Source: Thermoplasmata archaeon (GTDB lineage Archaea > Thermoplasmatota > Thermoplasmata > Lutacidiplasmatales > UBA184). From it: a stretch of DNA of 64,000 nucleotides. This document shows, in pieces, positions 3,292 through 45,157 of this stretch; within the stretch, counting starts at the first letter, position 1, and each line of letters begins with the position of its first letter. The position numbers were made by a program, and so were the translations under genes. The notes under the pieces are model-generated. The model was not told the origin of the DNA, made no database searches, and saw only the letters and a list, made by a program, of their open reading frames with translations. The stretch lies in contig DASPVQ010000013.1 of the NCBI GenBank assembly GCA_035622275.1, positions 1 through 64,000 on the forward strand. Direction: 5' to 3'.

Positions 3292-4599
3292 CTACGCCGC
3301 CTCCGTCGCCTCGGCCGGCGCGGGCGCGGGGGCCGCCTTCGGGGGCGGGCTCGCGCCCGCGAGCGGCTTGTAGACGAGGTTCACCGCGCCGGTGCCGAGC
3401 GTGATCGGCTGGCCGACGATGATGTTCTCGGCGACGCCCTTGAGCTCGTCGACCTCGCCGGTGATCGCGGCGCGCAATAGGTGGGCCGCGGTGATCTCGA
3501 ACGCCGCGCGGGCGAGCACGCTCGTCTTCTTGCCCGAGATGCCGTGTCGGCCGATCGCGCGGATGTCCCCCTCGTTCGTCATCACGTCGGCGACGAGCAT
3601 CAGGTGCCGGATGTCGACGCCGAGCCCCTGCTCGGCGAGCGTGCGGTTCGACTCGTGGATCAGCGCCGCGCGGGCCGCCTCGACGCCGTAGACCCGGTAG
3701 ATCTCGAAGACCGAGTTCGTCGTCGTCCGCACCGGGTCGACGCCGGGGATCTCGAGGACGTTCTCGAGGTTCGAGCCCTCCGTGTAGATCACGTACTCGT
3801 CCTTCTCTTTGCGGATGAGGGCCCGGCGGATGCCGGTGACGCCCTTGATGCGGATCGCCTTCGCCTCCTCGCTCGCGATGAGGAGCTTCTTGAACGGCAT
3901 CTCCTCGACGAGCTCCTCCTTCTTGGACTTGGTCGCGCCGGGGCTCGACTCCTTGAGGTGGATCTCGAAGCTGCGGGTCTCGCCGCTGCCGCTGCCGTTG
4001 GAGAGCTCGAAGAGGCGGGGGTCGAGGTTCTCGCGCAGCGCGCTCTCGAGCTCCGCGCGCTTGATGCCGCGCTCCTCGAGGCGGGCGGCGATCGGGCTCA
4101 CGACGACCGTGAGGTCCTCGACGACCGTGCCGATCGCGGCGACGTCCGGGACGGTCGTCACCTCGATCTGGAGCGCGATCTGCTGGACGGCGTCGCGCTC
4201 GCCCCGCAGCTTCTTCTCCACGTGGACGGTCATCATCGGGGTCGACGGGACCCGGCGCGCGTCGACGAGCTCGATCAGGCGCGGCAGCCCGAGCGTCACG
4301 TTCATCTCGGCGACGCCGGCGTAGTGGAACGTCCGCAGCGTCATCTGTGTCCCCGGCTCGCCGATCGACTGCGCGGCCAGGATGCCGACCGACTCGTGCG
4401 CGTCGACCTCGGCGCGCCGGTAGCGGCGCGCGACCTCGCGCACGACGCGGGTCGCGTCGCCCGGCGGCAGGCGCAGGTTGTGGAGCTTCGTGCGCAGCTC
4501 CTCGGCGACCAGCGGCGGGAGCGCGACCCCCTCCCTCCCGGCGATCTCCTGGATCCGGCGGACCGCGTCCCCTGGCCCGCTCTTCTTCTCCTCGGGCAT
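3292..4599 (-). CDS. rpoA2: DNA-directed RNA polymerase subunit A'' (Rpo1C)
   Basis: 435 residues, corresponding to the C-terminal third of bacterial beta' and eukaryotic Rpb1. The start of the jaw and trigger-loop region is clear in the motif [19 protein letters not shown] (residues about 60-78), followed by [20 protein letters not shown]. The C-terminal part contains the conserved [21 protein letters not shown] and SVLARAAFE stretches, and a final Pro/Ala-rich tail. The ATG at 4599 lies 2 bases after the stop of rpoA1 and is preferred over a longer in-frame extension that overlaps rpoA1. The split into A' and A'' is an archaeal trait. Confidence 0.97.
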
Positions 4600-4601
4600 C
4601 G

Positions 4602-7391
4602 CTACTCGCCTCCGAACTCGGGGCCCTCCTCGGGCGCCCCGAACTCCTCGGTCTCCTCCTCCTCGCCTTCTTCCTCGAGCTGGGCCTCCGCCTGGAGGTC
4701 CATCTCCTCCTCCGTGACCGGCGGGGCGCCCGCGGGGCCCTCGGGCCGGCGCTCGTCGGAGGAACGGACGCGCCGGCCGAGCACCTGGCTGACGACCTCG
4801 TCCAGCGAGACCGCCGCCCCCTGGTAGGAACGGGTCGGGTCGATGCCGTCCTCGCCGTAGTCGAACTCGATGACGGTGCCCGCGGTGTTGCGGACCGTGC
4901 GGTCCTCGGCGACCTTGAGGTCCTCGAGGGCGTTGATCAGGCGGCGCTGCATGTAGCCCGAGCGGCTCGTGCGCACGGCCGTGTCGACCAGCGACTCGCG
5001 CCCGCCCATCGAGTGGAAGAAGTACTCCGTCGGCGAGAGGCCCCGCTTGTAGCTCGAGCTCACGAACCCGCGAGCGCCGCTGCCGAGGTCGCCGCGCTCG
5101 AAGTGGGGCAGGGTCCGGTTGAAGTAGCCGCGCATCAGGCGCTCGCCGCGCACGCTCTGCTGGCCGACGGCCCCGGCCATCTGCGTCAGGTTGAGCATCG
5201 AGCCGCGCGCCCCGGACTTCGCCAGGATCACGGCGGGGTTCTCCAGGCCCAGGTAGCGCCCGGCGATCTCGCCGGCCTTGTCGCGGGCCTGGCCGAGCTC
5301 GCGCCGCACCATCACCTCGAGCGTCTCCTCGACCGAGCGGCCGGGCATCTGCTCGAGCTTCCCCTTGCGGTACTGCTCGACGAGCTCGTCGACCCGCTCG
5401 CGGGCGGCATCGAGCGCGCTCTGGATCTCGCGCAGGGCCGGCTCCGGGACGTCCTCGTCGTCGATGCCGGTCGACAGGCCCTTGAGCCCGATGGCGGTGA
5501 TCGCGAGCCGGCTCATCTCGTCCAGGAACTCCCGCGCCCGCGGCATCCCGTTGTTGCGCGCGATCGCGTCGAGCACGGCTCCCTTCTCGTAGGCGATCGC
5601 CTTCTTGTCGATCGTCCCGGCCTTGAGGACGCCGTTCTCGATCACGACCCAGGCATCGTGCTTGCAGGCGAGCGGCGGGTCGTTGCAGCCGGCCCAGATG
5701 TTCGAGCGGAACTCGAGCGTGAGGTCCTTCGGCAGCGTGAGGCTGAAGAGCTGCTTGCCCGACCAGAACGGGTTCCCGTCCTTGTCCTTGCCCGCCGGCG
5801 GCGGGACCGGGTAGGCGAGCTTCGAGAGCAGGTAGGTCACCTCGGCCCGCGAGAACGAGGGGTCCTGGTAGGTCAGCAGGAACGCCGCGGTGATGTGGTC
5901 GTGCAGCATCCCGATGATCGGGCCGCCGTAGCGCGGGGAGAGGATGTGCTCCTCGACCTTCATCAGGACCTTCGCCTCGGCCCTCGCCTCCTGGCTCTGG
6001 AGGACGTGCAGGTTCATCTCGTCGCCATCGAAGTCGGCGTTGTAGGGCGGGCAGTCGCACAGGTTGAAGCGGAACGTCTTGTGCGGGAGGATGCGCACGA
6101 AGTGCGCCATCATGCTCATCCGGTGCAGGCTCGGCTGCCGGTTGAACAGCACGATGTCGCCGTCGATCAGCTGGCGCTCGACGATCGAGCCCGGCGTGAC
6201 GAGCTCGGCGCACGCCTCGGCGTTCTTCTCCATCACCTTGATGCGCTGGCCGTCCTCGCGCACGAGGTAGTTGACGCCGCAGCGGTAGCGGCCCTCGTCA
6301 TCCGGCCCCGGCGTGGGCCCGCGCTTCACCAGCTCCTTGGCGACCTCCTGGTTGTGGACGGTCACCTCGAGGGGTACGGTGAGCCCGCGCGCGACCTCGC
6401 CGGGGATTCCGACCTCGTTGATCGAGAGCAGCGGGTCCGGGCTGATCACCGTGCGGGCCGAGAAGTTGACCCGCTTGCCCGAGAGGTTGGAGCGGAACCG
6501 GCCGTCCTTGCCCTTGAGCCGCTGGGCGAGGGTCTTGAGCGGGCGGCCCGAGCGGTGCCGGGCCGGCGGGATCCCGCTCGTCTGGTTGTCGAAGTAGGTC
6601 GTGACGTGGTACTGGAGCAGCTCCCACAGGTCCTCGACGACGAGCTGCGGGGCGCCCATGTCGCGGTTCTCGCGCAGCCGCTGGTTGATCCGCAGCACGT
6701 CGACGAGCTTGTGCGTGAGGTCGTCCTCGCTGCGCTCGCCGCTCTCCAGGGTGATCGACGGCCGGACCTGGACCGGCGGGACCGGCAGCACGGTGAGGAC
6801 CATCCACTCCGGCCGTCCGAACTTCGGGTTGAGGCCGAGGGCCCGGACGTCGTCGTCGGGGATCCGCTCGAGGCGGGCGCGGACCTCCTTCGGCGTGATC
6901 TTGTGGGAGTTCTCCCGGAACGTCGTGGGCTTGTCGAGGACGATCCGCTGCTGCACCTCGTGGCAGTGCGGGCACGTCCGCTCCTCCTTGGGCTCGCGCG
7001 AGCGGACCGGCGGGGTCGGGGCGTCGTCGTCGCCGATCGCCTCCGCGCGGGGGCTCGGCGCGTCGGGGAGCATCCGCCCGCACGCGCGGCAGGTCGACTG
7101 CAGGAGGCGCTTGATCTCCTTGGCGTAGCCGACGTGGATCACCGGCATCGCGAGCTCGATGATCCCGAAGTGACCGGGGCACTCGTTGACGCGCCCCCCG
7201 CACGTGCGGCAGCGCAGGTTCGGCTCGATGACCCCGAGGTGGAGGTCCATCAGGCCCATCTCGATCGGGTAACCGTCGTCGTCGTAGGTGTCGGCGGTGA
7301 TGATCTTCACGCCGCTCATCCGCCGGATCTCGTCCGGCGAGAGGAACGCGAACTGCAGCGCCTTGATCCGCTTCGAGAGCCCCTGCGCCAT
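4602..7391 (-). CDS. rpoA1: DNA-directed RNA polymerase subunit A' (Rpo1N)
   Basis: 929 residues. The catalytic Mg-binding loop NADFDGDEM lies at residues 451-459, with Asp453, 455 and 457 as metal ligands. N-terminal zinc sites include [16 protein letters not shown] and CRACG/CPHCH. The bridge-helix region with [23 protein letters not shown] is present near the end, as expected before the A'/A'' split. Residues about 867-929 form an extra tail dominated by Glu, Gly and Pro beyond the family core. Start ATG at 7391 with a purine-rich GAGGGGACG just upstream. It lies 9 bases after rpoB in the RNA polymerase operon. Confidence 0.97.
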
Positions 7392-7400
7392 CGTCCCCTC

Positions 7401-10400
7401 CTAGCGCATCTCCTCGAGCTGCAGGCGCATGATCACGCCCAGGCTGATCAGCTCCTCGAGGAGGAGCTTGAACGAGTAGCTCATCTCGACCGGGTAGATC
7501 GAGCTCGTGTTCCCGCAGCTGGGGCAGCGCAGCGAGCCGGCGCGCGTGTCCGGGATCGCGATATGCCCGCAGTCGGTGTTGCCGCAGACGTACTGGATCG
7601 TGCCGTCCGACTCGTCGAGCAGCCGGTCCTTGATCACCATCGCGACGCCGTGGCCGATCAGGCAGTCCCGCTCCATCTCGCCGAAGCGCAGGCCGCCCTG
7701 GCGCGAGCGTCCCTCGGTCGGCTGGCGCGTGAGGATCTGGACGGGCCCGCGCGAGCGCATGTGCATCTTGCCCGCGACCATGTGGTGGAGCTTCTGGTAG
7801 TAGATCGCGCCGACGAAGATCTCGGCCTCGAAGCGCCGTCCGGTCAGCCCGTCGTAGAGCGTCTCGCGCCCGGACGGGTGGAAGCCGGCGGCCTTGAGGC
7901 CCTCCCGCAGCGCCTCCTCGCGCGCGCCGCTGAACGCGGTGCCGTCGACCGTCCGGCCCTCGAGCGCGCCGACCTTGCCGCCCAGCATCTCGAGCACGTG
8001 GGCGACCGTCATGCGCGAGGGGATCGCGTGCGGATTGATCAGGAGGTCGGGCGTGACGCCGTCGCGCGTGAACGGCAGGTTCTCCTGGGGGACGATGAGC
8101 CCGATCACGCCCTTCTGGCCGTGGCGGCTCGCGAACTTGTCGCCGAGCTCGGGGATCCGCTGGTTGCGGACCTTCACCTTGACGAGCTTGGAGATGTTCT
8201 CGCCTTCGGTGAGGATGACGTTGTCGACCCAGCCGGACTCGCCGAAGCGCACCGTGACGCTGGTCTCGCGCCGCTTCTGCGGCGTGAGCAGATCGGTCTT
8301 TTCCTCGAGGAAGCGCGGCGGGCTCGTCTTCCCGACGAGCACGTCCCCCTCGCTCACCTCGAGCTCCGGGAAGATCAGGCCGTCCTCGCCGAGGTTGCGG
8401 TAGGCCGTGTCCACGCGGGCGCCGGCGACGTCCGGCCGCGGGATCTCGAAGCGGTCCTCCTGGCCGCCCGGGTACTTGCGCTCCTCGCCGCGGTAGGTCC
8501 GGAAGAAGGAGGAACGGCCGAGGCCCCGGTCGATCGCGCCCTTGGAGAAGACGAGGGCGTCCTGCATGTTGTAGCCCTCGTAGGAGAGGACGGCGACGAT
8601 GAAGTTCTGGCCCGCTGGCCGTTCGGTGAAGTGGACGTAGCGCATCGTCTGCGTCTGGAGCAGCGGGGCCTGGGGGTAGTGGAGCAGGTGGCCGCGGGTG
8701 TCGGGCCGGCGGCGGTAGTTGACCGACTCGACGCCGAGCGCCTGCTTGGCCATCCCCGAGCCCATCGTGTTGCGCGGCGCGCTGTTGTGCTCGGGGTACG
8801 GGATGAGCCCCGTGCAGACGCCGAGCATCAGGTTCGGGTCGATCTCGAGGTGGGTGTGGCGGTCGGTGACGAGGCTCGCCGTCGGGAACTCGTTCTTGCA
8901 GAACCCGCACTCGACGAGCGCCTCCTCCCGCCGCTCGCCCATGGAGAGCCAGCGGATGTCGCTGCGGCTGAGCGAGCGCTCGCACTTCGGGCACCGGTCG
9001 GGCGGGACGAACGGATCGACGGCGATCAGCGAGTCCTCCTCCTCCTCGGCGTCGAGCCACTCGATCTTGCCTTCGCGGATGAGGTCGGTGAACGAGCGCG
9101 TGCCCCGGGCGAGCTCGTCGAGGTCGGTCCGCGTGACGCGCGGGACGCCGTTCTTCACGACCACGAGCGGACGGCGCAGCCGGCCGGGGTCGCAGTGCAC
9201 GATGACCTCGTTCATCTCCGCGTCATAGCGCACGTTGATCTCGTACGTTCGGTCCTCGAGCGTCGAGGAGAGCGTGCGGGTGCGGCGGCGGTCGCGCAGG
9301 TCCCGCACGAGCTCGAGCGGCTGCGAGTGGAGACCGATCAGGTTGCCGTTCACGTAGACGCGCGCGGCGCGCTTCCCGCGCGGCGCGGCGGCCTCCTGGA
9401 AGACCTCGGGGCCGATCTCGCGCGTGTTGTTGTCGCGCAGGATGAGGGTGACCTCCTCCTCGTCGCACCCTTCGGAGACGTCGACGCACAGCGCGTAGTT
9501 CTTGACGAGGCCGCAGTTCTGGCCCTCGGGGGTCTCGTTCGGGCACAGCCGTCCCCACTGCGTGGGATGGAGGTCCCGCGCCTCGAAGTGCGGCTGGCTG
9601 CGGGTCAGCGGGCTCGTGACGCGGCGCAGGTGGCTGATCGTCGACATGTGACTCGTGCGGTCCAGCACCTGGCTGACGCCGGCGCGGCCGCCGACCCAGT
9701 TCCCCGTCGCCAGCGCGTGCACGAGACGCTGCGTGAGCAGGTCGGGACGGATGGCGCTCGCGATCCGCAGGTCCTTCTTGCGGGCGAACGACCGCTCGAG
9801 CTGGTACTTGAGGTCCTTGAGCAGCAGCGAGAAGGCGACCCGGAACAGGTCCTCCATGAGGTCGCCGGCGAGCTTGAGGCGCTTGTTCGCGTAGTGGTCC
9901 TTGTCGTCCTCGCCACGGACCTTGAGATGGAGCTCGAGGACGGTGCGGGCCATGCGGGCCAGGTACAGGGCCTTCTTCAGCCGGTCGTGCTTGGTGTCGC
10001 CGAGGTGCGGGAGCAGCGAGCGGTCGAGGATGCCGTCGACCTTGCGCTGGCGGTACTCCTTCGCCTGGCCGGTCGCGAACTTCTTCTCGAGGAAGATCAG
10101 CGCGTCGTCCGTCGAGAGGATCCCCTCGGGCGGGTACAGCTTCTTGGAGACGCACTCCTCGAGGTTGACGTTGAGCAGGTGCTTCATCGTCTGGACGAAC
10201 GGCTCGTCCAGCGGGAGGAGCTCGCCCAGGACCGCCTGGAAGATCTCCTCGTCGTTCTTCATCCCGAGGGCTTTCATCAGGATCACGAGCGGGATCTGGC
10301 CGCTCGCCGTCGGGACCGAGACCTGGAGCACCCCGTCCTTCTTCTTCTCGACGACCGTGAGGGAGCGGTATCCGCCCCGCTGGCTGAACACCTTCGCGCT

Positions 10401-11072
10401 CTCGATCGGGGTGCCGTAGCGCTCGTTGTACTCGGCGAAGATGCGGTTCGGTGCGAGGTCCTCGAGGCTGATGATCACGCGCTCCGTGCCGCCGATGATC
10501 GCGTAGCCGCCGGGGTCGAGCGGGTCCTCGCCGTACTCGACGAGCTTCGCCCGGTACTCCTCGTCGGACAGCGCGATCTGGCCGTCGGCCTCGATGTTCG
10601 CCTTCGCGAGATTGCACTGGCGGCTCTTGACCATGATCGGCAGGTCGCCGATGTGCACGGTCTCGCTCGCCCGCTCGACCCCGTTCTCGACGACCGTGAC
10701 GTCGAGGTAGATCGGCGCCTGGTAGGTCAGGTTGCGCAGGCGCGCCTCCATCGGGGTGAGCGTCGGCTTGGAGCCGACCGGCTCCTTCACGAACGGCTTG
10801 CCGATGCGGATCGTCGGCTCGGCCGACGGGCTGACGTAGCCGCGGGGGTCGCGCCGCCGCCCGACGCGCACCTGGATCGAACTCTTCGTCTTCTGCACGT
10901 CGAGCCGGATCATCCCGTGCTCGGTCGAGTCCTCGCTGACCCGGGCCTCGTCGACGATCCGCTGCATCCGGGAGTTCGGGTTGTCCTCCGTCGGCAGGAA
11001 GTCGTTGAAGCTCGCCAGGTGGTGGTTGACGATGGACCGCTCGCGGAAGAACGCGTCGACGATCTCGCGCAC
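7401..11072 (-). CDS. rpoB: DNA-directed RNA polymerase subunit B (Rpo2, unsplit)
   Basis: 1,223 residues, one continuous B subunit rather than the B''/B' pair found in many methanogens and haloarchaea. Typical segments include [47 protein letters not shown] and [12 protein letters not shown], and a C-terminal zinc ribbon (CGNTDC...CPSCG) before [18 protein letters not shown] second Cys pair set, Cys694-x2-Cys697-x24-Cys722-x2-Cys725, lies between the strand [14 protein letters not shown] and HTHLEID, a place where crenarchaeal and eukaryotic homologues have no zinc ribbon to my knowledge. Located 6 bases after rpoH. Confidence 0.97.
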
Positions 11073-11078
11073 GGACCT

Positions 11079-11417
11079 TCAGCTCCCCCCGGCGGCGACG
11101 ACGATCAGACGGTAGGCGACGGCCTCGCCGGCAGTGGCGCTCGGGCGGCGGATCCGCACCAGGCGACCCACCAGCCGCTCGCCGGCATCGCGCGCTGCGG
11201 TGAACTTCGGGTCGGTGAGCAGGCCGGGATCGCCGAGCAGGATCTTGGGGAGGCGCTCGGGGACCGTCTCGAGCTCCTGGAGGATCCGCTGCGTCTCCTC
11301 CTCCGACAGGATCTCGTGGGGCGGGGCGAGCCGATGGGCGATGAACGGCCGGGCCGGCTTCGCCGCGGCCGGGGCAGCGGCCTTGCGACGGGGCGCGCGC
11401 GCGCTCGAGGGGGTCAT
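11079..11417 (-). CDS. rpoH: DNA-directed RNA polymerase subunit H (Rpo5)
   Basis: 112 residues. The C-terminal about 85 residues match RpoH, the archaeal equivalent of the assembly domain of Rpb5: FIAHRLAPPHEILSEEETQRIL and ERLPKILLGDP are diagnostic. The first about 23 residues are a basic Ala/Pro/Arg/Lys-rich extension not found in most RpoH proteins. A Shine-Dalgarno GGAGGAG sits 4 bases before the ATG, inside the 21-base gap to tRNA-Lys. No separate TATA box is visible in that gap, so rpoH, first gene of the RNA polymerase block, may be expressed from a promoter upstream of the tRNA. Confidence 0.92.
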   Translation of the reverse strand: MTPSSARAPRRKAAAPAAAKPARPFIAHRLAPPHEILSEEETQRILQELETVPERLPKILLGDPGLLTDPKFTAARDAGERLVGRLVRIRRPSATAGEAVAYRLIVVAAGGS

Positions 11418-11452
11418 GCGACTCCTCCGGGAACGCGATGGGCCCGGGGGGA

Positions 11453-11490
11453 CGCCCGGAGCGGCTCCGCGGCACGCGCGGGGCGGCTCG
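11453..11490 (-). other. T-loop intron (position 59/60) of tRNA-Lys
   Basis: 38-base insert between TTCGAA and TCCCCC of the T-arm. The boundary is ambiguous by one base (C or T at tRNA position 60). It can form an inner hairpin CCGCG-CGTGC-CGCGG and an outer GAGC/GCTC pairing. A canonical bulge-helix-bulge could not be confirmed by eye. Confidence 0.8.
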
Positions 11491-11529
11491 TTCGAACCCC
11501 CGACCAACTGGTTAAAAGCCAGCTGCTCT

Positions 11530-11559
11530 TTGTAGGGCCGGCGGGAGCGCCGCGCGGCC
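11530..11559 (-). other. D-loop intron of tRNA-Lys
   Basis: About 30 extra bases between AGCTAGGTT and AGAGC in the D-arm; exact ends are uncertain by 1-3 bases. The insert folds through GGCCG/CGGCC and an inner GGCG-CTCC-CGCC hairpin, which would bring both exon ends together. TAG in the 5' exon can pair with CTA near the 3' end, leaving short bulges, reminiscent of a relaxed bulge-helix-bulge. Confidence 0.75.
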
Positions 11560-11613
11560 AACCTAGCTGAGCTACGGGCCCGATCCCGTTCCGGCCCGGG
11601 CCGACCCGGCCGC

Positions 11614-11623
11614 CGTATTTCAG
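11614..11623 (-). promoter_or_regulatory. Candidate TATA box for tRNA-Lys and possibly the RNA polymerase operon
   Basis: The minus strand reads GAAATACGGC about 37 bases upstream of the tRNA-Lys 5' end, a suitable distance for transcription start close to the tRNA. It is the nearest AT-rich element between UPF0147 and rpoH outside the tRNA itself. Confidence 0.4.
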
Positions 11624-11640: not shown

Positions 11641-11955
11641 TCACGCGATGCTCTCCAGGCTCGAGATGATCGACCAGATCGCCGTTCGGCCGTGCGTCGG
11701 GAGGTTCGGGTCGTTCGCCAGGTCGTCGAGCAGGTAGACCGCGCTCGCGATCCGCACATCGCGTGCCGCCCGCGGCTTCGCGAGCGCCTCGCGCGCGGAC
11801 TGCGCGCCGCGACGGATGTTGCGGGGCACGCTCGAGTCCTCCGCGAGCTCGGCGAGCGCGTCGAACACCGACTGGAGCGCGGGCGGGTCCGCGTCCGCCC
11901 CCGTCGGCGGGGCGGCGGGCGAGCTGGCCGAGGCCGCGGGGGACGTCGCCGTCAC
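11641..11955 (-). CDS. UPF0147 family protein
   Basis: 104 residues. The C-terminal about 75 residues match the archaeal UPF0147 family, with LAEDSSVPRNIRRGAQSA and DVRIASAVYLLDDLANDPN, then HGRTAIWSIISSLE. The first about 27 residues are a Ser/Ala/Pro-rich extension. The family is small, all-helical and of unknown function. Its ATG overlaps the stop codon of the Lrp-like gene upstream (ATGA type), so the two are translationally coupled. It is on the same strand as tRNA-Lys and the RNA polymerase genes. Confidence 0.88.
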   Translation of the reverse strand: MTATSPAASASSPAAPPTGADADPPALQSVFDALAELAEDSSVPRNIRRGAQSAREALAKPRAARDVRIASAVYLLDDLANDPNLPTHGRTAIWSIISSLESIA

Positions 11956-44890: not shown

Positions 44891-44907
44891 GGCGCGGCGG
44901 GGCGCCA

Positions 44908-44991
44908 CGCTGAGGGGGAGATTCGAACTCCCGTGGCGGAATCGCCACCAGCTTTCAAGGCTGGCGCCTTGCCGGACTAGGCTACCTCAGC
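44908..44991 (-). tRNA. tRNA-Ser(UGA)
   Basis: Acceptor strands GCTGAGG and CCTCAGC pair fully, with discriminator G and no encoded CCA. The anticodon arm CCAGC-CTTGAAA-GCTGG gives UGA. A long variable arm with TGGCG/CGCCA marks a class II tRNA. The T-arm GGGAG-TTCGAAT-CTCCC is uninterrupted, in contrast to tRNA-Lys and tRNA-Gly nearby. GGGTTTATCC about 30-35 bases upstream is a likely TATA element. Confidence 0.96.
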
Positions 44992-45056
44992 GCATCCGGC
45001 CCGAGCGGGGCTCCCGAGGATAAACCCTCGGATTCGAGCCCGCGGCCGGCGTCGGA

Positions 45057-45157
45057 TGCAGGTGCCGGGAGATCCGCGACAGGTCGTGGGGGCCCGTCGA
45101 TTCGAACCCGGGTGGTCAGCTTGGAGGGCTGACATCCTACCACTAGATTACACCTGC
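45057..45157 (-). tRNA. tRNA-Gly(UCC) with a T-loop intron
   Basis: Acceptor strands GCAGGTG (45157-45151) and CACCTGC (45064-45058) pair fully; discriminator A at 45057, no CCA. The anticodon arm TCAGC-CCTCCAA-GCTGA gives UCC. The T-arm 5' half CCGGG-TTCGAAT is separated from its partner CCCGG by 30 extra bases. Removing 45070-45099 yields a normal 71-nt tRNA with the T-arm CCGGG-TTCGAAT-CCCGG. The insert lies at the same place as the T-loop insert in tRNA-Lys. A CATTAAC element about 40 bases upstream may be its TATA box. Confidence 0.93.
45070..45099 (-). other. T-loop intron (position 59/60) of tRNA-Gly
   Basis: 30-base insert in the T-loop; the boundary is ambiguous by one base because T occurs at both ends. 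The intron stretch CGGG near its start could pair with CCCG of the 3' exon, as expected for a relaxed bulge-helix-bulge, but this was only judged by eye. It shares no obvious sequence with the tRNA-Lys introns. Confidence 0.8.

Follow-up and report, generated by a model that had tools for sequence, protein, structure and literature searches.

Introns at positions 20/21 and 59/60 of archaeal tRNA genes have been listed, chiefly in Crenarchaeota and Nanoarchaeota (PMC4090602), and multiple tRNA introns have been described in Thermoproteales, M. kandleri, Korarchaeum, ARMAN and Asgards (PMC4033280, PMC11291895). According to reviews, euryarchaea with an α4 or α2 EndA splicing endonuclease carry single canonical introns only (PMC4090602, PMC4033280), and Korarchaeum has been called the sole α2 archaeon with non-canonical introns (PMC4033280). 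For Thermoplasmata and Methanomassiliicoccales we found no report of tRNA introns in the open literature; databases such as GtRNAdb may list them.

Here, we describe a tRNA-Lys(UUU) gene of a Thermoplasmata archaeon that has one intron in the D-loop, one in the T-loop and none at 37/38, and compare it with four described systems: (i) Thermoproteales and other Crenarchaeota have D- and T-loop introns including 20/21 and 59/60, several per gene and with bulge-helix-bulge or relaxed motifs (PMC4090602, PMC8450103), but their EndA is of the (αβ)2 type with a CSL loop whereas that found here is of the α'2 type without the loop, and their introns have been transposed between tRNAs whereas those found here are not recognisably similar; (ii) M. 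kandleri and Korarchaeum likewise have non-canonical or multiple introns outside Crenarchaeota, but the EndA of the former is a heterotetramer (PMC6379350) and the α2 EndA of the latter has a specific loop (PMC4033280); (iii) the Asgard Atabeyarchaeia and Freyarchaeia, also an uncultured soil lineage, have many intron-bearing tRNA genes, often with multiple and non-canonical introns (PMC11291895), but belong to a different phylum and have introns in 92-95% of their tRNA genes, compared with 19 of the 43 located here; and (iv) tRNA-Ile(UAU) of Cyanidioschyzon merolae has introns in the D- and T-arm of one gene (PMC9602550), but in a eukaryote, with a third intron in the anticodon arm and a TSEN-type enzyme. 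The kind of intron is already known in archaea; the surprise lies in the lineage and in the enzyme.

Based on the perfect stems, the sole UUU copy, covariation, a TATA-like box, the conserved locus and the presence of genes for EndA and the ligase RtcB, we suggest, with a probability of roughly 0.92, that this tRNA-Lys(UUU) gene is functional and present in a single copy, and that protein enzymes are predicted to remove its two archaeal introns.

The tRNA-Lys(UUU) locus

The window, i.e. the whole stretch of 64,000 nucleotides that was analysed (positions 1 to 64,000 of contig DASPVQ010000013.1, assembly GCA_035622275.1), belongs to a genome of 1.73 Mb in 29 contigs that is 97.4% complete. An archaeal 16S gene lies at the start of the window. 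By rpoB, the host has its nearest named relatives among Thermoplasmata MAGs, one of them Candidatus Lutacidiplasma silvani (rpoB identity 90%), and it is a Lutacidiplasmatales-like member of the Thermoplasmata. The features discussed below are as follows.

7401..11072, minus strand: rpoB, unsplit, with Pfam Rpb2 domains; the syntenic anchor of tRNA-Lys
11079..11417, minus strand: rpoH (RNA polymerase subunit H; Pfam RNA_pol_Rpb5_C, 57 bits), its start codon about 20 nt downstream of tRNA-Lys
11439..11581, minus strand: precursor tRNA-Lys(UUU), stems and anticodon read directly, kept in 66 relatives; discriminator A73 at 11439 included
11453..11490, minus strand: T-loop intron, 38 nt, site 59/60, with a 3-4-3 bulge-helix-bulge
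11514..11516, minus strand: anticodon UUU, within the uninterrupted 7-nt loop CUUUUAA
11530..11560, minus strand: D-loop intron at its maximal extent (31 nt, site 20/21), or 11531-11559 (29 nt) by the strict 2|1 bulge rule; UAGG/CCUA helix and covariation
11615..11622, minus strand: TATA-like promoter element, TGAAATAC, at -41 to -34 relative to the tRNA
11641..11955, minus strand: UPF0147 gene upstream of tRNA-Lys (Pfam UPF0147, 97.5 bits)
45058..45157, minus strand: tRNA-Gly(UCC), interrupted at 59/60 by a T-loop intron of 30 nt (about 45071-45100), the second such gene of the window

On the reverse strand 11439-11581 reads, in order, GGGCCCG TA GCTC, a D-loop of 40 nt, GAGC A GCTGG CTTTTAA CCAGT TGGTC GGGGG, a T-loop of 45 nt, and CCCCC CGGGCCC A. 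The 7-bp acceptor stem, the 4-bp D-stem and the 5-bp T-stem are perfect, and outside both loops the sequence is that of an ordinary archaeal tRNA-Lys(UUU). The original prediction had described perfect acceptor and anticodon stems and two introns with none at 37/38, and the sequence, the covariation and the intact 7-nt anticodon loop bear this out; its 38 nt for the T-loop insert is exact and its 30 nt for the D-loop insert lies within an uncertainty of 29-31 nt. A 2407-codon open frame on the plus strand (4347-11570 of the window) runs antisense to the RNA polymerase genes and is most likely an artefact of the 72% G+C content and no gene.

Both inserts lie at sites other than 37/38 and their removal leaves a standard tRNA, the features by which a non-canonical archaeal tRNA intron is generally recognised. 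ARAGORN called no gene in the precursor or after removal of one intron alone, and called tRNA-Lys(ttt) on 4/4 doubly spliced variants (74-76 nt); the Rfam tRNA model scores the precursor at 21.8 bits compared with a cut-off of 29 bits and misses it. The suspicion that automatic annotation may overlook this gene was well founded, and 13 of the 43 tRNA genes located in this genome lie below the Rfam cut-off or were found by special search only. Default tRNA finders undercount tRNAs in such genomes. The paper describing the order of the host used tRNAscan-SE 2.0 and leaves introns unmentioned (PMC9287336).

That default finders miss the gene, and that its A73 is unlike that of relatives, could be taken to indicate a tRNA pseudogene in decay, two of whose loops have acquired random insertions. 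However, the stems are perfect, the gene is single-copy, the promoter-like box is conserved, and the same two insertions occur with compensatory changes in 63 relatives. An A/T-rich block at -39 to -35 is conserved across more than 60 relatives, with 79-97% A/T against a G+C content of 72%. The second, uninterrupted tRNA-Lys(UUU) gene that the original prediction named as the sign of a pseudogene was not found: a UUU-specific pattern had one match genome-wide, the family census gave the same result, and the uninterrupted tRNA-Lys gene of this genome is Lys-CUU. Among the 55 lysine codons of rpoB, 54 are AAG and one is AAA. Because AAA codons are present and a CUU anticodon cannot read AAA, the sequence data imply that the interrupted UUU gene should be essential. 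Given the covariation and the single-copy status, we consider decay very unlikely, and the locus reads as a functional gene. The discriminator is A at 11439 and G in 66/66 relatives and in Lys-CUU of the same genome, a minor oddity or a sequencing error.

Splice motifs and covariation

In the T-loop intron, U54-G57 (UUCG) pair over 4 bp with CGGG close to the end of the intron. AA|C and CG|U form the bulges, the inner intron stem is GAGC/GCUC and the outer helix is the T-stem. The intron has the strict bulge-helix-bulge motif (two 3-nt bulges, a 4-bp helix and helices on both sides), and its helices are paired in 98% and 93% of cells among 64 sequences. In the D-loop intron, exon residues 17-19 (UAGG) pair with CCUA close to the intron end (100% of cells paired), the 5' bulge is UUG and the intron stem is GCCG/CGGC. 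On its 3' side an unpaired CAAA (4 nt) faces AGC (3 nt) before the D-stem, and the intron departs from the strict motif, having no outer helix stacked on the 3' bulge. As judged from these pairings, the D-loop motif is of the relaxed bulge-helix-loop type, with the relaxation on the 3' side. The limits of the D-loop intron are uncertain by one base on each side: the strict cut rule gives an intron of 29 nt and leaves an 11-nt D-loop, whereas intron-less orthologues have a D-loop of 9 nt, AGCUAGGUA, which would imply a 31-nt intron at 20/21; precursor positions 22 and 52 are variable and 21 and 53 are held. We place the cut at about 20/21 and the intron length at 29-31 nt.

The unconstrained minimum-energy fold (-81.7 kcal/mol) differs from the bulge-helix-bulge fold (-73.2 kcal/mol), and free folding is a weak guide for RNA so rich in G+C. 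As unconstrained folding does not give the bulge-helix-bulge motif, covariation was used instead. In 64 sequences (the gene of the window and 63 relatives) and 16 pairs in four exon-intron and intron helices, 96.7% of cells are paired and both sides have changed in 101 cells; neither value was reached in any of 500 shuffles, and pairing falls to 31-55% when the partner is shifted by one to three bases. Exon positions 17 and 17a covary with the intron (UA to CG and AU to CG, respectively), with UA in 42 and CG in 12 sequences at columns 17-49 and AU in 35 and CG in 29 at columns 18-48. Chance is excluded because dozens of relatives share the double interruption with compensatory changes between exon and intron, and we read the pattern as the signature of selection for splicing.

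The inserts are structured hairpins, and could in principle be permanent, so that the mature tRNA would be enlarged to about 142 nt. This is hard to reconcile with how they vary: across the relatives the exon-intron helix and the bulges are held, but the interiors of the inserts are free to vary and the length of the T-loop intron spans 29 to 42 nt. Moreover, elbow residues of the D- and T-loop would remain buried, orthologues at the same locus lack inserts exactly there (L154, L183-L188, L262), and EndA and RtcB are both encoded. We give such an enlarged tRNA scarcely any credence.

In the splicing model that we favor, the precursor would be transcribed from its own promoter, EndA would cut at 59/60 and about 20/21, and RtcB would join the exons to give a tRNA of 74-76 nt that would read AAA (and AAG). 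The original expectation that removal of both inserts leaves a standard tRNA agrees with the ARAGORN calls. The D-loop intron would pair with G18-G19 and the T-loop intron with U54-G57, i.e. with residues of the mature tRNA elbow, from which we infer that the elbow would form only after both cuts.

Introns in other tRNA genes and across the class

The gene is no isolated oddity: in one half of the class the same locus is doubly interrupted in most lineages, and the genome has 16 non-canonical introns in 15 genes. The 19 intron-bearing genes among the 43 located include (i) 13 with T-loop introns at 59/60 (Lys-UUU, Ala-GGC, Ser-GCU, Ser-GGA, Ser-CGA, Gln-CUG, Arg-UCG, Arg-UCU, Asp, Asn, Glu-CUC, Gly-UCC and His), (ii) three with D-loop introns (Lys-UUU, initiator Met and Arg-GCG), and (iii) four with introns at 37/38 (Trp, elongator Met, Tyr and Leu-UAA). 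One register is common to all 13 T-loop introns, giving 45/52 pairs compared with at most 35 in other registers. In seven of the 13, one of the four central pairs is absent, usually at A57, and by this measure these seven are slightly relaxed. A genome of the same genus that is rated 100% complete has the same intron set. Compared in 78 pairs, the intron cores of different tRNAs show no convincing resemblance (mean z 0.3, maximum 3.0).

tRNA-Gly(UCC) is also missed by ARAGORN and lies below the Rfam cut-off. It is immediately upstream of tRNA-Ser(UGA) (44907-44992), and the same-genus genome G041 has a matching low-scoring match beside its tRNA-Ser(UGA). The initiator tRNA-Met (L031) also has a D-loop intron; in Arg-GCG (L033) the insertion lies before G18-G19 and has its own helix, GUAGC/GCUGC. 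A pattern search for missing isotypes found His-GUG and had no match in the genome for Glu-UUC, Pro-GGG or Pro-UGG, and Leu-UAG, with its long variable arm, was outside the scope of the patterns; the unmatched isotypes may be hidden by an intron at 37/38 or by C33, or may lie within missing sequence. tRNA-Glu(UUC) of G041 (L217) apparently has C at position 33, where U is nearly universal. Two near-identical tRNA-Ile(GAU) genes (L004 and L011) lie near contig ends and may be an assembly duplicate.

tRNA-Lys(UUU) was read from 21 families of Thermoplasmata, and 20 were compared after exclusion of f26, whose intron-less gene is a different one away from rpoB; f31 is counted with the caveat that its Lys gene is not beside rpoB in the genome checked. 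Both introns are present in 13 of the 20 families (f1, f2, f3, f7, f9, f12, f18, f21, f22, f29, f30, f32 and f33), the D-loop intron alone in f14 and one genome of f1, the T-loop intron alone in f6 and one genus of f9, and neither in f8, f15, f19, f27 and f31. tRNA-Lys adjoins rpoB in 28 of 30 representatives, and from this position the Lys genes are orthologous. With or without introns, the gene lies directly upstream of rpoH-rpoB throughout the class.

In the rpoB tree, f15, f19, f27 and f31 form one well-supported intron-free side, and the other side has introns throughout except in f8. The simplest reading of this distribution is a single old gain on the intron-bearing side followed by several losses; we infer that the introns in this half of the class have been inherited and repeatedly lost and are not recent insertions. 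f6 branches first and has the T-loop intron only, which tentatively suggests that the T-loop intron may be the older of the two. Methyl-coenzyme M reductase is encoded in f8, f22, f29, f30, f32 and f33, which are probably Methanomassiliicoccales; f15 is probably Aciduliprofundum-like and f19 probably Thermoplasmatales. Thermoplasma and Ferroplasma, the sources of the characterised Thermoplasmata enzymes, would be placed on the intron-free side. The standard model finds 44 and 46 tRNAs in one f8 and one f19 genome, respectively.

The splicing endonuclease

EndA is encoded at a single locus (contig C19) as a protein of 354 aa with two fused repeats, two tRNA_int_endo domains, and two PF01974 and two PF02778 stretches. 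The catalytic Tyr, His and Lys are in the C-terminal half (KYGAHF, HARYLV and RKEF), and from its sequence the enzyme is assigned to the α'2 type. Its best PDB sequence match is the EndA-like chain 5x89, which we take to be the M. kandleri chain. RtcB ligase is also encoded in the genome. Broad specificity was judged by the presence of an inserted, Lys-containing loop ahead of the LSLIE strand in the catalytic unit, as in the CSL of (αβ)2 and the ASL of ε2 enzymes. The CSL/ASL loop is absent: the site reads YGSRVGSRLELSL and is short as in A. fulgidus and M. jannaschii. Among the 29 aligned class members that cover the CSL site none has a loop insertion, the ASL having been located by position and not by residue-by-residue alignment.

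The original prediction held that these introns imply an endonuclease with relaxed specificity. This does not hold in general: the T-loop motif is strict, so that its intron would need no relaxed enzyme, and EndA is an ordinary α'2 enzyme without CSL or ASL; of the two Lys introns only that of the D-loop is clearly off the strict motif, on its 3' side. Relaxed motifs are tied by reviews to (αβ)2 and ε2 enzymes (PMC6379350, PMC12397907), and α'2 EndA of A. fulgidus and T. acidophilum is listed as narrow. Together with the relaxed 3' side of the D-loop motif, this link would fit real introns whose excision needs a broadened, CSL/ASL-like endonuclease or a second, unrecognised subunit. On the other hand, there is only one EndA locus, of the α'2 type, no alignable class member has an inserted loop, and α'2 enzymes are reported to cut bulge-helix-loop motifs: A. 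fulgidus EndA does so at 37/38 in full-length pre-tRNA (PMC6379350), and homodimeric EndA is said to do so (PMC8707768). We regard a broadened enzyme or second subunit as unlikely, and lean moderately towards the model in which the loop-less α'2 EndA removes D- and T-loop introns from about one third of the tRNA genes, relaxed D-loop motifs included.

If this model is correct, an entire archaeal clade would break the rule that non-canonical introns co-evolved with CSL/ASL loops, and the masking of the two halves of the tRNA elbow by paired introns would be an old and stable trait. The conservation of the double intron on the side of the class that contains methanogens makes the co-evolution of enzyme loop and intron position testable in organisms that are closer to cultivation.
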